Assembly: GCA_029262275.1 (NCBI GenBank)
Contig: JAJCZS010000037.1
Span: 62,001-126,000 of the forward strand
Source: Deltaproteobacteria bacterium
GTDB lineage: Bacteria > Desulfobacterota_D > UBA1144 > Nemesobacterales > UBA2774
Length of the DNA: 64,000 nt
Reading direction: 5' to 3'
Part shown: positions 28,992 to 35,413 of the stretch, one piece after another
Position numbering within the stretch: position 1 is the first letter of the stretch
How the letters are laid out: the number at the start of each line of letters is the position of its first letter
Made by a program: the position numbers and the translations under genes
The notes under the pieces: generated by a model
The model's database searches: none
Told to the model about the DNA's origin: nothing
Seen by the model: the letters and a program-made list of their open reading frames with translations, nothing else

Positions 28992-29564
28992 ATGGAAAGC
29001 GATATAGAGCTAATGCTGAGGACAAAGGATGGGGACGATGGCGCATTTAGCGAGCTTATGAATAGGCATTATAAGGGCGTGTTGAATTATATATACAGGT
29101 TTACGAATTTAAGGGAAAATTCAGAAGATCTTGCTCAGGAGGTATTTTTAAGAGTGTACCGGTCAGCAAGTAAGTATAGACCAGAGGCCAAATTTACTAC
29201 ATGGCTTTATAAAATTGCTACCAATGTAAGCCTGACGTATGTAAAAAAAAAGAATACTAATATAAGTTTAGATGAAATGACTGAAAACATTGGGGAATAT
29301 GAGGATTCAGATGTTGAAATATCAGATGACATAATTTATAGAAAAGAAATGAGAAATGTAATATTCAGTGCAATGGAAACTTTGCCCGAAAGAGAAAAAA
29401 TTGCTATTATGCTATGTAAATATGAGGGCCTTTCTTATGAAGAAACGGCGGATGTCCTTGAATGTACAGTAGGTGCTGTTAAGGCATATGTTCACAGGGG
29501 AAGAATGAAGCTTGTGGATAAACTCAAACCATATTTGATGGAGGAAGGAAAATATGGAATGTAG
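28992..29564 (+). CDS. ECF-family RNA polymerase sigma factor (RpoE-like)
   Basis: The 190-residue sigma factor has region 2 (FSELMNRHYKGVLNYIYRFT, LAQEVFLRVYRSASKY, KFTTWLYKIATN) and region 4 (LPEREKIAIMLCKYEGLSYEETADVLECTVGAVKAYVHRGRMKL). These are separated by an acidic linker. It overlaps the downstream anti-sigma gene by 11 bases, and a Spy/CpxP-like gene follows, so it probably responds to envelope or metal stress through those two proteins. Confidence 0.94.
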   Translation: MESDIELMLRTKDGDDGAFSELMNRHYKGVLNYIYRFTNLRENSEDLAQEVFLRVYRSASKYRPEAKFTTWLYKIATNVSLTYVKKKNTNISLDEMTENIGEYEDSDVEISDDIIYRKEMRNVIFSAMETLPEREKIAIMLCKYEGLSYEETADVLECTVGAVKAYVHRGRMKLVDKLKPYLMEEGKYGM

Positions 29565-30048
29565 AGAAATTAAAGAGACTCTTATAGAATACACATTGGG
29601 TGATTTAAGCCATGTTGAAAAAGCAAATATAGAGAGCCACTTGGATGGCTGTATAGAGTGTAGGGGTTTCGTATCTGAGTCAAAAGGGCTCTGGAGCCTA
29701 TTAGAGACTTGGGATGAAGTAGAGCCTAGTGGTGATTTTATATCTAACTTCTGGGATAATGTTGAAGAAACTAAGGCTAGCCCGGGATTCTTAAATTGGA
29801 TACAAAATCTAAAGCCAAACTGGACATTAGCAGGAGCAATGGCTTCCATTTTCTTAGTTAGCATCATTACCTTTGGTGCTTTTAGTCCGGATACAAGGAA
29901 CAGCATTTTCATGAGTGCTGATGAGCGAGATGAATTAATATTGATAGAGCTAGACAACGCTATATCTAGAGAAACGGCGGATGTGCTTTCAATCTATGGG
30001 CCATGGGACGGTGGCTCGGAGATAAATGGTAACGGAGGCTTTAATTGA
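29554..30048 (+). CDS. Anti-sigma factor with N-terminal zinc finger
   Basis: This membrane-anchored anti-sigma factor of 164 residues has a zf-HC2/ZAS-type motif with His29, Cys33 and Cys36 (SHLDGCIEC) plus Cys3. A cytoplasmic linker and a single transmembrane helix at about 92-113 (WTLAGAMASIFLVSIITFGAF) follow, then a periplasmic tail of about 50 residues. It overlaps the sigma gene by 11 bases and the next gene by four, so all three are translationally coupled. It should hold the sigma factor at the membrane until a periplasmic signal arrives. Confidence 0.88.
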   Translation: MECREIKETLIEYTLGDLSHVEKANIESHLDGCIECRGFVSESKGLWSLLETWDEVEPSGDFISNFWDNVEETKASPGFLNWIQNLKPNWTLAGAMASIFLVSIITFGAFSPDTRNSIFMSADERDELILIELDNAISRETADVLSIYGPWDGGSEINGNGGFN

Positions 30049-30461
30049 GAATATCGGTTTTGTTTTTTGTTTTCTTAATTATTTTTACTTTAAACGCAAG
30101 CGCAATGCTTGGCTCTAAGGGCAATTACAAGTGGTGGAAAGATCCTCAAATTGTTACTAAACTTGATCTGAATACCCAACAGGTAAACACTATAGACGGT
30201 ATTTTTAAATCTTATAAAAAAACATTCATTAATTATAAAAAGCAGCTTAGATACCAAGAGGTAGAATTGAAAAAAGAGCTGCAAAATCCCAAAGCAAAAA
30301 AAGAGAATGTTCTACAACTAATTGATGGGATTGAAGATACTAAAGCCGCCTATACTAGAACAAAGGTAGAGATGTATCTAAAGGTAAAAGATGTACTAAC
30401 ACCTCAACAACAAAGCACTCTTCACCAGATTAAGCTCCGTTTTAGACCTTACCATAGATAG
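30045..30461 (+). CDS. Spy/CpxP-like periplasmic protein
   Basis: The 138-residue exported protein has a signal peptide ending near NASA. Its helical mature part carries a Spy/CpxP/heavy-metal-sensor-like pattern (WWKDPQIVTKLDLNTQQVNTID, then LTPQQQSTLHQIKLRF). The TTG start at 30045 overlaps the anti-sigma stop as TTGA and has GGAGG six bases upstream, which supports it over later starts. By position it is the periplasmic sensor or effector of the ECF system, comparable to CnrX/ZraP-type proteins. It has few metal-binding side chains, so chaperone or stress sensing is also possible. Confidence 0.8.
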   Translation: MRISVLFFVFLIIFTLNASAMLGSKGNYKWWKDPQIVTKLDLNTQQVNTIDGIFKSYKKTFINYKKQLRYQEVELKKELQNPKAKKENVLQLIDGIEDTKAAYTRTKVEMYLKVKDVLTPQQQSTLHQIKLRFRPYHR

Positions 30462-30551
30462 TAAGCAGTTCTCTGTAATACCTTATTATATCTTTGAATG
30501 TTTATTCCTGATCTTTTTATTAACTAAAAGTTGTTAGATTATAATAATTAC

Positions 30552-30675
30552 GATGAATTAGAGCTAAAGAGTTTTATTGATATTGAGGTAAGTGCATGTA
30601 TTCTTCTCCTTGCTCTATGCACTAAAATTGGGTAGTATCTCTTTGACGAAAAGCGGGTTAAACCCGCTTTTTTTA
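30552..30675 (+). ncRNA. Candidate small RNA or leader RNA upstream of rimP
   Basis: A TATAAT hexamer at 30540-30545 would start a transcript of about 125 bases ending at a strong intrinsic terminator. Between them, AGTGCAT (30591-30597) and ATGCACT (30617-30623) form a perfect 7-bp stem. Its 19-base loop contains CTCCTT (30606-30611), complementary to Shine-Dalgarno sequences. No open reading frame is apparent. The -35 element is weak. It could be an independent small RNA or an attenuator of the rimP-nusA operon. Confidence 0.35.
30649..30675 (+). terminator. Strong intrinsic terminator before rimP
   Basis: AAAAGCGGGTT pairs with AACCCGCTTTT and is followed by a T-run. It lies 188 bases after the Spy-like gene and 77 before rimP. 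Confidence 0.85.
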
Positions 30676-30752
30676 ATTTTTAAGGGTATTAACCGCTATT
30701 AAGCGTTTTTAACTGCTAATATGGTTTATTAATATCCAGAAGGTTATTTTTC

Positions 30753-31220
30753 ATGAACGTAACTGAGCAAAATATAATATCTAATATTAAAGAGTTGTTA
30801 GAACCAATATTATATGAAAAGAACCTTGAGTTGTTTGATATAGAATATAAAGGATCGAGCCATAAGGGAGTCCTGAGAGTTTATATAGATAAAGAAGAGG
30901 GTGTAACAATAAGTGATTGTACTCAAATAAGCAGAGAGCTTGGTCCTCTTTTAGATGTTCATGAGGTTATTCCTGGCTCATATACACTTGAGATCTCTTC
31001 CCCTGGACTTACAAGGGCTCTAAAGAAGCCAAGTGATTATATAAGATTCAAAGGCAAAACTGTGAAAATTAAGACAATAGAAGAAATAGATGATAGAGAC
31101 GTCTTTCAAGGGAAGCTTGTAGACTTTATAGATGAAACAGTATCTCTTGAGACTAAAGGGACTAATTATTTGATTCCCTTCAGTAAAATAGAAAAGGCAA
31201 ACCTGGAATTGGATTTCTAG
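30753..31220 (+). CDS. rimP: Ribosome maturation factor RimP
   Basis: RimP assists 30S subunit assembly. The 155-residue protein shows the family order: LELFDIEYKGSSHKGVLRVYID, VTISDCTQISRELGPLLD, and the hallmark YTLEISSPGLTRALKKPSDYIRFKGK. It begins the long rimP-nusA-infB superoperon; nusA follows after 13 bases. Confidence 0.95.
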   Translation: MNVTEQNIISNIKELLEPILYEKNLELFDIEYKGSSHKGVLRVYIDKEEGVTISDCTQISRELGPLLDVHEVIPGSYTLEISSPGLTRALKKPSDYIRFKGKTVKIKTIEEIDDRDVFQGKLVDFIDETVSLETKGTNYLIPFSKIEKANLELDF

Positions 31221-31233
31221 AGGGAGATTTGCA

Positions 31234-32586
31234 ATGTCAGAACTAACCGAATTAACTCGTGTAATGGATTCTGTCTGTAAAGACAAGGGTATTAAAAGAG
31301 AAGAGATTGTTGACGCGGTTGAAGAGGCCGTATTATCAGCAGCACAAAAATTATTCCGAATGCAGGATATGGATAAAGAGCTTGAAGTTCATTTCAATGA
31401 AGACGATGGCGACGTAGAGTTATTTGAGTTTAAGACTGTCGTAGAAGATATTGAAGATCCTGAGATGGAAATTAATGAAGAGGAAGCGCTAACTCTTGAT
31501 CCAGAAGCCGAGCTTGGTGATCAGATTGGTGTTAAAATTAACCCTGATTTTACTAGAATTGCCATACAAAATGCTAAACAGAGAATACTCCAAAGTATAA
31601 AAGAGGCGGAAGGAAAGGTCATTTATGAGGAATTTAAAAACCGCAAAGGGGAGCTTATTAGCGGAATAGTAAGAAGGGTTGAAAGAAGAAATATTATTGT
31701 AGACCTAGGAAAGACAGAAGCCTACCTTCCTCCTGAACAACAGGTGCAGAGAGAGTATTATAAGCCTAAGGAGCGAATGAGGGCTATATTGGTTGATATT
31801 AAGGAAACAAAACGCGGGCCGCAGTTAATATTGTCCCGTTCTCATAAAGACTTTGTAAAGAAACTATTTGAATCTGAAGTGCCAGAAATAGGTGAGCAAA
31901 TTGTAGAAATTCAAGCTATCTCCCGAGATCCTGGAGGCCGCACAAAAATTGCTGTTTCATCAAACGATCAGGATGTTGATCCAGTTGGTGCATGTGTTGG
32001 AATGAGAGGGGCTAGAGTTCAAAATGTGATTCAAGAGCTAAGAGGGGAAAAAATTGATATAGTGCCGTGGTCTCCTGATCATGCAAGATTTGCTTGTAAC
32101 GCACTATCTCCTGCAGAGGTTAGTAAGGTCATCATTGATGATGAAAATAAGTCAATGGAGATTATAGTGGATGATGATCAATTATCCTTGGCGATAGGCC
32201 GCAGGGGTCAGAATGTAAGGCTTGCGTCTCAGTTAACTGAATGGCGTATTGATATTAAGACAGATTCTCAGATGAAACGTGAACAACAGGATGTTGTCTC
32301 TTTGTTAATGTCGCTTCCTAATGTTAAAGAGGTGACTGCTAATCTATTGTATGGTGATGGTTATCATAAATTAGAGGATGTCGCTTTTTCTGACTCAGAA
32401 AGTCTTGTAAAGTCAGGTGGCTTAAAAGACGAAGAAGAAGCCCAGAGATTACAAACTGCAGCAAGAATTGCACTTAAAGATAAATTGGATCAAATGACAG
32501 AGCCTGGCGAGGTTGCCGAGGAATCTATACTTGAAGTGAAACAGGAACCTGAACCGAAAGCAGAAAATGTGGCTGAACAAGAGTAA
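31234..32586 (+). CDS. nusA: Transcription termination/antitermination factor NusA
   Basis: NusA modulates RNA polymerase pausing and termination. The 450-residue protein has the N-terminal polymerase-binding domain (1-125), an S1 domain (about 135-200, GELISGIVRRVERRNIIVDLG), and two KH domains (DPVGACVGMRGARVQNVIQELRGEKID; LAIGRRGQNVRLASQLTEW). A helical C-terminal region ends in an acidic tail. GGGAG precedes the ATG. The usual ylxR gene does not follow; 175 non-coding bases precede infB instead. Confidence 0.97.
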   Translation: MSELTELTRVMDSVCKDKGIKREEIVDAVEEAVLSAAQKLFRMQDMDKELEVHFNEDDGDVELFEFKTVVEDIEDPEMEINEEEALTLDPEAELGDQIGVKINPDFTRIAIQNAKQRILQSIKEAEGKVIYEEFKNRKGELISGIVRRVERRNIIVDLGKTEAYLPPEQQVQREYYKPKERMRAILVDIKETKRGPQLILSRSHKDFVKKLFESEVPEIGEQIVEIQAISRDPGGRTKIAVSSNDQDVDPVGACVGMRGARVQNVIQELRGEKIDIVPWSPDHARFACNALSPAEVSKVIIDDENKSMEIIVDDDQLSLAIGRRGQNVRLASQLTEWRIDIKTDSQMKREQQDVVSLLMSLPNVKEVTANLLYGDGYHKLEDVAFSDSESLVKSGGLKDEEEAQRLQTAARIALKDKLDQMTEPGEVAEESILEVKQEPEPKAENVAEQE

Positions 32587-32776
32587 ATATTAAATTTTCT
32601 TAGAATTTGTCTAACAAAATGATTGAGTTGATTTAGGTTCCATAAAATTAAGTTCATTTAAGGTACATTAACAAAGCTCTCTTTTGCATAGTTTACTAAA
32701 CTTTGGTACCCTTCATTAGATAAGCTCAAAGATTAAAATAAAATATTAATACCTAGTAGTAATGGATGTGTTAAAT

Positions 32777-35413
32777 ATGTCTAGTATAAGAGTCTATGAA
32801 CTATCGCGTGATTTAGATAAGCCTAGCAAGGAAGTTTTAAATGTTGCTAAAGGTTTAGGTATATCTGTTAAGAGTCATGCCAGTTCAATTTCTGCCGAAG
32901 AAGCGAAGAAAATTATAGATAAAATTGGCTCTCCTGGGTCAGCAGAATCTAAGAAAAAAGAGGCTGCTGTTGAGGAGAAAGAAAAGGTGAGAGTCTTTCG
33001 TTCTGAAAGTGGGGCTGAAGTTGTTGAGAGAAGAAAGGGAGCCCGAGTTGTATTACGTAGAAAAAAGAAGTCGGCAGAGCCAGAAGAAGTTCTCGAAACC
33101 GCAGAGCCTGAAGTTATAGAAACACCGGCAGTCGTCGATGAGCATGTGGAAGATGGGGCCAAAGCAGTAGAGCTCAGTGAGTCTGAAGAAGCAATTCAAG
33201 CCAAGGGATCCGACTCAAGTACCGAAGCAACTCAAGAAATTAGCCAAGAATCTGAGGAAGAACCCTTAGAAGCTCAAGACTCTGAAGAAACTGTAGAGAA
33301 CAAAACCCAACAATCAACACCTGAAATAGATAAAAAACCTAAAGCTGCTACAGAAGAGCCTGAGAAGAAGTTTAAGAAAAAGAGTAAAAAGGTTAAACCT
33401 AAACGCGAAGAAATAATAGATGAAGACACACTTGAAGAATTAAGGAAAGCCTTCAGAGCCAAGCTTCCTGGTAAAAGAAGGGAGTATCTTGTTGAAGGTG
33501 GTGCTAGCAGATCCAGACCTAGACCATCTAACAGTGGTGGATACAGGGGCAAGGGGTCTGACAACAGAGGTTCTAGAGATGACTCCAGATATGCCAAATC
33601 TCAAGCTGGGGCTAGTGATATGTCCACTGATGTTTTCCCATTTCCAGCAAAGGCATCAAAGCGTGCTATAAAGATCGGCGAGTCAATCAATGTTGGCGAA
33701 TTAGCCAAGTTGATGAGTGTTAAGGCCGGGGAATTAATAAGAAAACTAATTTCTCTAGGTGTTAGTGCTACTATCAATCAAACTGTAGACCATGAAACAG
33801 CTGTACTTTTGGCTGAAGAATTCGAATATGAAGTTATTGTTGATATATTTGAGGAAGAAGACTTACTACTTGAAACTGAAGATAATGACACCGAAGCCAA
33901 TATGTCCACACGACCACCAGTTGTAACTGTAATGGGTCATGTAGATCATGGAAAAACTACTTTGCTCGATACCATAAGAAAGGCAAATGTAGTGGATGGA
34001 GAGGCTGGTGGAATTACTCAGCATATAGGTGCATATTCTGTAGATGTTAATGGTAGAAAGGTTGCATTTGTAGATACTCCGGGACATGAAGCTTTTACCG
34101 CAATGAGGGCTCGTGGTGCAAAAGTTACGGATGTTGTGATTCTTGTGGTTGCTGCGGATGATGGAGTTATGCCTCAGACAGTAGAGGCTGTAAACCATGC
34201 TAAGGCTGCGGAAGTTCCTATAATAGTAGCTGTTAACAAAATAGATAAACCCGACGCTGAACCTGAAAAAATTAAACGTGAGCTATCAGAAATCGGTCTC
34301 CTTGCTGAAGATTGGGGAGGCGATACGTTATTTACAGAGGTATCAGCTAAGCAAAATACCGGCATTAAGGAATTACTTGAACTCATATTATTGCAAGCAG
34401 ATGTGCTTGAGCTAAAAGCCGATACCAACAAGAGAGCCAACGGGTTTGTAATTGAGGCAGTTTTAGACAAGGGCAGAGGCCCAGTTGCTACTGTGATTGT
34501 TAATGAAGGAACCTTGAGGGTTGGAGATACAGTGGTTGCTGGTACAACCTATGGTAAAGTCAGGGCCCTTTTAGACGATAGAGGTGGTAGGGTTCAAGAG
34601 GCAGGCCCCGCAGTTCCAGTTGAAATAATGGGACTCTCTGGGGTTGCTCAAGCAGGAGAGCGTTTCTATGCTGTAAAAGATGAGAAAACAGCCAAAGATG
34701 TAATAGGACATAGAGAAACGAAGCAAAGAGAGACTCTGGCTGCCAAAGTAAGGAAACCATCATTAGAGAATCTATTTGAGACACTAGAGGAAGAAGAAGC
34801 CAAAGAGCTCGCTATAATCATCAAAGCAGACACTCAGGGTTCAGTTGAAGCAGTTAGAGAGTCCATAACTAAACTTAGCACAGAGAAATGTCAGGTTAAG
34901 GTAGTACATACAGGGGTTGGAGGCATTAACGAAACAGATGTGATATTGGCCAGTGCTTCAAATGCGATTATTGTAGGATTTAATGTCAGACCTGATGTAA
35001 AGGCTTTAGAGATCGCAGATAGAGAGGGCATTTCATTTGAACTTCATACTATAATATACAATCTTATTGATAGAGTCAGAGGAGCCATGGAAGGGTTATT
35101 GGATCCGATAGTCAAAGAGAAGATTATGGGTCACGCAGAAATTAGAGAGACCTTTAATATTTCTAGGATTGGAACTATAGCAGGGTGTTTTGTAAATGAT
35201 GGTAAAGTTGTGAGAGATAACAATGTGAGAGTTTTGAGGGATGGCGTAATCGTTTTTGATGGTCTTCTATCATCTCTTAAACGTTTCAAAGACGATGCCA
35301 AGGAAGTTAACGCGGGATATGAATGTGGTATAACAATTGAAAGGTTCAACGATCTTAAAGTTGGGGATACTTTCGAGTTTTACACTCATGAGGAATTTAA
35401 GCAAGAGCTTTGA
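32777..35413 (+). CDS. infB: Translation initiation factor IF-2
   Basis: IF-2 places initiator tRNA on the ribosome. The protein of about 878 residues starts with the IF2_N fold ([20 protein letters not shown]). A long low-complexity charged linker and a second IF2_N domain ([21 protein letters not shown]) follow. The GTPase domain has [27 protein letters not shown] and NKIDKPDA, and domains II-IV follow it. I prefer ATG 32777 because homologues begin at this Ser-Ile-Arg-Val sequence. ATG 32762 would add five residues, and neither start has a strong ribosome-binding site. DUF503 and rbfA follow closely. Confidence 0.96.

Follow-up and report, generated by a model that had tools for sequence, protein, structure and literature searches.

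The rimP-nusA-infB operon in the 64,000-nucleotide stretch of DNA that was analysed (the window) is preceded by an intrinsic terminator of the rimP-leader type, and comparison with related genomes shows that this terminator and a promoter-like pair of boxes close to it have been conserved jointly. Probably, the promoter of the operon is set directly against a rimP-leader attenuator for which NusA is the signal, and many transcripts would most likely end after about 30 bases. Use of the promoter, the position of the start, the functioning of the terminator in vivo and NusA as the signal are what we infer from these patterns. The rimP-leader attenuator is an already known kind of element; what the comparison of sequences would add is its start-site-coupled form throughout the class.

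Genomic context of the element

The window belongs to a draft genome of 2.48 Mb in 47 contigs, and the relatives are labelled here as Ca. Dadabacteria and kin. As a preliminary description of this DNA had stated, the element lies in the longest intergenic region of the window, namely the 291 bases of 30462-30752, when ORFs of at least 60 amino acids are called greedily. It is flanked upstream by a small ORF that weakly resembles Metal_resist (26.8 bits against a Pfam cut-off of 29.2), and downstream by rimP-nusA-infB (Table 1), where the ORF that we take to be infB was assigned by sequence recognition. Positions 28992-30461 encode, in a row, an extracytoplasmic-type sigma factor, an anti-sigma factor (zf-HC2) and a secreted protein resembling Metal_resist, which together have the look of a separate sensing module.

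A scan of the window for tRNA and tmRNA genes returned none, and no Rfam family was matched anywhere in the window at gathering scores. When E-values of up to 10 were allowed for positions 30440-30780, 15 matches were obtained, every one of them below its gathering score, the best being L20_leader (21.8 bits against 58.7). The gammaproteobacterial rimP leader RF01770 has the same position 5' of rimP, and the alignment of its model to the terminator covers positions 34-99. Its score against the window, 16.4 bits, did not reach the cut-off of 47, and the match was the seventh of 12 weak places in the host's own genome.

Table 1. Features of the region upstream of and within the rimP-nusA-infB operon.
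Feature	Position	Strand	Basis
TATAAT/AATAAT, possible weak second promoter	30540..30548	+	p = 0.169 for the best upstream promoter of the window
Hairpin of the preliminary description, judged not functional, overlapping the -35 box	30591..30623	+	Shuffles, genus comparison
Predicted -35 box TTGCTC, rimP operon promoter	30610..30615	+	Invariant in 7/7 genus members
Predicted -10 box TAGTAT, 17 nt past the -35 box	30633..30638	+	Genus: TAGTAT 5/7, TAATAT 2/7
Predicted transcription start	30645	+	Inferred with an assumed spacing of ~7 nt past the -10 box
Intrinsic terminator, rimP-leader type	30648..30674	+	Stem GAAAAGCGGGT/ACCCGCTTTTT, loop TAA, T-run 30668-30674
Shine-Dalgarno-like AGAAGG of rimP	30738..30743	+	Sequence reading
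rimP	30753..31220	+	ORF; Pfam RimP_N 2.1e-24, DUF150_C 7.3e-18
nusA, proposed feedback regulator	31234..32586	+	ORF; Pfam NusA_N 1.1e-31, KH_5 2.4e-31
infB (presumed)	32762..35413	+	ORF

Loci used for comparison

A RimP match was found in 56 class genomes, and 50 of these were used (G012, G043, G048, G051, G052 and G054 were left out). L073 and L077 were added as kin on the grounds of NusA identity; the other loci numbered L062-L078 are repeats of counted genomes or, in the case of L065, have the upstream part missing. Outside the class, 63 loci (L079-L141) were examined, and the promoter counts cover those in which the finder detected a terminator, thus all but L079, L109, L121, L125 and L136; the hairpin found in L091 is not of the GGG...CCC type. 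The set for the covariation analysis consisted of 34 class loci picked by eye, so as to thin near-identical ones.

A conserved terminator upstream of rimP

The terminator had been described as strong, and this view was borne out. Its 11-pair stem (30648-30672) is accompanied by a run of seven T residues, the end of which lies 78 nt from the rimP ATG, and a folding energy of -14.9 kcal/mol is obtained for the predicted 30-nt RNA, a value reached by 0 of 200 of its shuffles. Across the 33 distinct class sequences, 93.9% of the cells are paired and 5 of 10 pairs have changed on both sides (in 13 cells), with a covariation score that none of 500 shuffles attained. Within the genus alone, no both-side changes were found in the stem. 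A GGG...CCC stem core, which reads GCGGGTTAAACCCGC in the window, is present in 50 of 52 class loci and in 47 of the 58 terminator-bearing loci outside the class. One genus member, G003 (L006), carries a broken stem pair (GCGCG...TCCGC), because of which it was missed by the terminator finder and had to be placed by hand; the attenuator of G003 may therefore be weaker.

As the hairpin would occupy the extreme 5' end of the message, it could stabilise the rimP mRNA instead of working as a terminator. We regard this as very unlikely, since the T-run, which a stabiliser does not need, is conserved along with the stem in the alignment of relatives, and since real termination at the same place has been described in Streptococcus agalactiae (PMC4448216). 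A further structure between the terminator and rimP was considered and dropped, because the window, which folds there somewhat better than its shuffles (z = -2.34), is not matched in this by the six relatives (z from -1.07 to +1.10).

Terminator-like sites numbered 18, 15 and 23 in the three 20-kb parts of positions 1-60000, against 15.2, 13.3 and 12.7 in shuffles. A stricter scan of the whole 64 kb returned one site per strand, the one on the + strand being the rimP terminator. Intrinsic termination may thus be little used in the host genome.

A predicted promoter immediately upstream of the terminator

When the upstream regions of the seven genus members are aligned, an invariant TTGCTC is followed, 17 nt on, by a GGTARTAT block and then by the terminator. 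The corresponding pattern, TTG-N16/17-TA..(A/G/T)T at most 75 nt 5' of the stem, occurs in 49 of 52 related loci, where dinucleotide shuffles lead one to expect 4.0; it should be noted that the pattern TTG-N16/17-TA...T was written after viewing the sequences. Without L073 and L077 the count is 47 of 50. Three loci, L046, L055 and L058, lack the pattern; L049 has a doubtful match, which is probably not the true box. Judged by an E. coli matrix, these promoters look weak, with 20 of 51 loci at p-values of 0.05 or less and a p-value of 0.169 for the window. The case for the promoter therefore rests on conservation and not on closeness to the consensus. The idea of a genome-wide regulon sharing this promoter was abandoned, as TTGCTC-N16/18-TANNNT is too unspecific (111 places in the genome compared with 52 for the reversed pattern). 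With GCGGG added, the pattern (TTGC...) was found at 6 places in the genome, and its control at 1.

The terminated RNA predicted from this arrangement comprises positions 30645-30674, that is 30 nt, instead of the 125 bases that had been proposed. Measured from the predicted start to the end of the T-run in the 49 loci, it ranges from 22 to 53 nt with a median of 31, and falls within 22-41 nt in 46 of them.

Outside the class, 4 of 11 Bdellovibrionota loci carry the strict pattern, where 0.45 would be expected, as do 2 of 47 others, with an expectation of 1.82. When the pattern was loosened after viewing, 8 of the 11 (0.46 expected) and 1 of the 47 (1.93 expected) matched, so that in these 47 other loci no coupling beyond the level of expectation was seen with either pattern. 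The Bdellovibrionota-titled locus L136, in which the finder detected no terminator, is outside the 11 counted. Coupling of promoter and terminator is therefore not universal; to judge from the patterns, the start-site-coupled form appears plain in the class and, by the looser post-viewing pattern, likely in the Bdellovibrionota. In L089, L113, L118, L119, L120, L124, L133 and L138, all from this group, a TTG-N17-TA pair lies 9-16 nt before the terminator core.

The terminator might mainly serve to end the upstream genes for the sigma factor, the anti-sigma factor and the Metal_resist-like protein, with the rimP promoter merely adjoining it. Indeed, the nearest upstream ORF is co-directional in the window, and no stronger terminator lies between this ORF and the promoter, which makes a shared role of the terminator possible. 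Likewise, among the 37 genomes where an upstream ORF could be called (some of these ORFs being short), the nearest one is co-directional in 26, divergent in 10 and ambiguous in one (L023). However, the terminator is present in all 37 genomes despite the varying upstream gene. In the 10 genomes with a divergent gene (L016, L017, L019, L020, L021, L022, L024, L030, L071 and L072; 74-232 nt from the stem core) it cannot be ending the upstream gene, and the motif specific to rimP is kept while that gene changes. Moreover, from its place 3' of the promoter the terminator would stop rimP too. We therefore consider it unlikely that ending the upstream genes is the main role of the terminator.

The upstream hairpin and a possible longer leader

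The preliminary description had proposed a small RNA that acts in trans and exposes an anti-Shine-Dalgarno word in its loop, or an attenuator of rimP-nusA-infB. The second proposal is supported for the terminator alone, which precedes the operon in nearly all of the relatives examined and agrees with the rimP-leader as published. The hairpin on which the first proposal was built is present as described: the perfect 7-bp stem AGTGCAT/ATGCACT encloses a 19-nt loop with CTCCTT at 30606-30611. Nonetheless, of 2000 dinucleotide shuffles of the same 102 bases, 206 contain a hairpin at least as good (perfect stem of 7 or longer, loop no longer than 19), as do 57 of 627 chunks taken from the window, and the hairpin looks like a chance occurrence. 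In the six relatives from the same genus, 23 of 42 pairs form in the hairpin register, compared with a mean of 19.8 when the 3' arms are permuted; 23 or more were obtained in 120 of 720 permutations. The signal looks stronger with the row of the window included, where the share of paired cells is reached by 4 of 500 shuffles and the covariation score by 8 of 500, but it is this row that defines the structure. The relatives' own short hairpins sit in other registers, and CTCCTT occurs in 2 of 7 genus genomes, the second copy being three bases off register. A BLAST search with the region matched the rimP upstream regions of the genus and of some family and order members, in alignments that start inside the loop of the hairpin or further on, and not at its 5' arm. 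Neither the stem nor CTCCTT is thus clearly conserved in close relatives. In addition, the loop overlaps the -35 box that is invariant in 7 of 7 genus members, so that, on the best reading, the hairpin is not transcribed from that promoter. These findings speak against the proposed small RNA.

The statement that the region has no reading frame was nearly right, apart from a 9-codon ATG...TAA frame at 30596-30625. In 30585-30625, GAGG precedes this frame. A leader peptide was considered here and rejected, since the ATG is unaligned among the genus relatives.

The TATAAT that had been pointed out is indeed present at 30540-30545, and transcription could start from it at about 30552 and reach the terminator, which would give a leader or small RNA of 120 nt. 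Three of the 7 genus members have TATAAT, and a fourth has TACAAT, about 94-113 nt 5' of the stem core, and there is some excess pairing in the hairpin if the window row is counted. Against this stands the finding that none of the best upstream promoters of the seven genus members beats shuffles at the 0.05 level (p-values from 0.055 to 0.965), and that the hairpin and CTCCTT are not kept in relatives. A start at this TATAAT is accordingly doubtful, and we judge a longer leader of this kind to be highly improbable.

Relation to known nusA operon leaders

The preferred reading, a promoter set directly against a rimP-leader attenuator, has several known counterparts. The rimP-leader of Naville and Gautheret (2010) is described as an attenuator with a GGG...CCC stem at 4-130 nt from the gene, for which, in the passages of that paper on this motif, no antiterminator was seen and a protein regulator was favoured, NusA being judged the best and most probable candidate (PMC2965389). 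The element in the window resembles it in having a terminator 5' of rimP-nusA-infB with a G-rich 5' arm, a C-rich 3' arm and a T-run (PMC2965389); indeed, its position at the operon, its GGG and CCC arms, its T-stretch and its distance of 78 nt to the gene all agree with the published description. It differs next to GGG...CCC, where the published motif has c/g and the window stem, GCGGGT...ACCCGC, has T/A. The same passages report no promoter coupling, and the mapped B. subtilis leader is given there as 180 nt (PMC2965389). If transcription begins at the predicted start, 30645, an antiterminator is impossible.

In the rimP-nusA operon of S. agalactiae, RNA-seq is reported to have located termination at an intrinsic terminator 31 nt from the start site, with a short and a long transcript from one start, and feedback by NusA was proposed (PMC4448216). 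The predicted 30 nt of the window agrees with these 31 nt, the former being a prediction from sequence and the latter an RNA-seq result (PMC4448216). For B. subtilis, a review describes autoregulation of NusA by termination in the 5' leader (PMC12288461), and the E. coli metY-nusA-infB operon is described as having a tRNA, several promoters and the terminators t1 and t2 before rimP (PMC6511841). NusA-stimulated termination upstream of the genes, as we propose it here, would be common to these operons and the window; in contrast to the approximately 30 nt of the window, the leaders described for B. subtilis and E. coli are long (PMC12288461, PMC6511841). A search of the open-licence literature for Dadabacteria together with rimP found no paper. 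Since the stem and position are the same as in the published rimP-leader, and in view of the S. agalactiae and B. subtilis cases, we regard the element as a start-site-coupled rimP-leader, and by analogy NusA would exert the control in the host organism.

Proposed mechanism and implications

RNA polymerase would start near 30645, and the whole nascent RNA of about 30 nt would fold as the terminator. When NusA is plentiful, termination would be efficient and the tiny leader alone would be made; when NusA is scarce, read-through would lead to synthesis of RimP, NusA and IF2. Transcripts from the predicted promoter would run into the terminator immediately, too early for any sensor made of RNA to be accommodated. 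As a tentative extension, to which we give only a small chance of being correct, the start-site attenuator could directly measure how much NusA is free when sigma hands over to NusA just after promoter escape.

In place of the small RNA that had been proposed, the region in this uncultured lineage thus appears to hold a conserved element that controls the transcription machinery. RNA-seq has shown the start-site-coupled form of about 30 nt once, in a streptococcus; elsewhere, too, it is probably common. If the handover reading were true, the attenuator would have been placed at the start purposely, with the speed at which NusA replaces sigma on the polymerase as its sole possible signal, and this gauge would have been kept over a class and would recur in Bdellovibrionota and streptococci. 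A terminator that reads NusA after promoter escape would then constitute a minimal natural system for the exchange of sigma for NusA.
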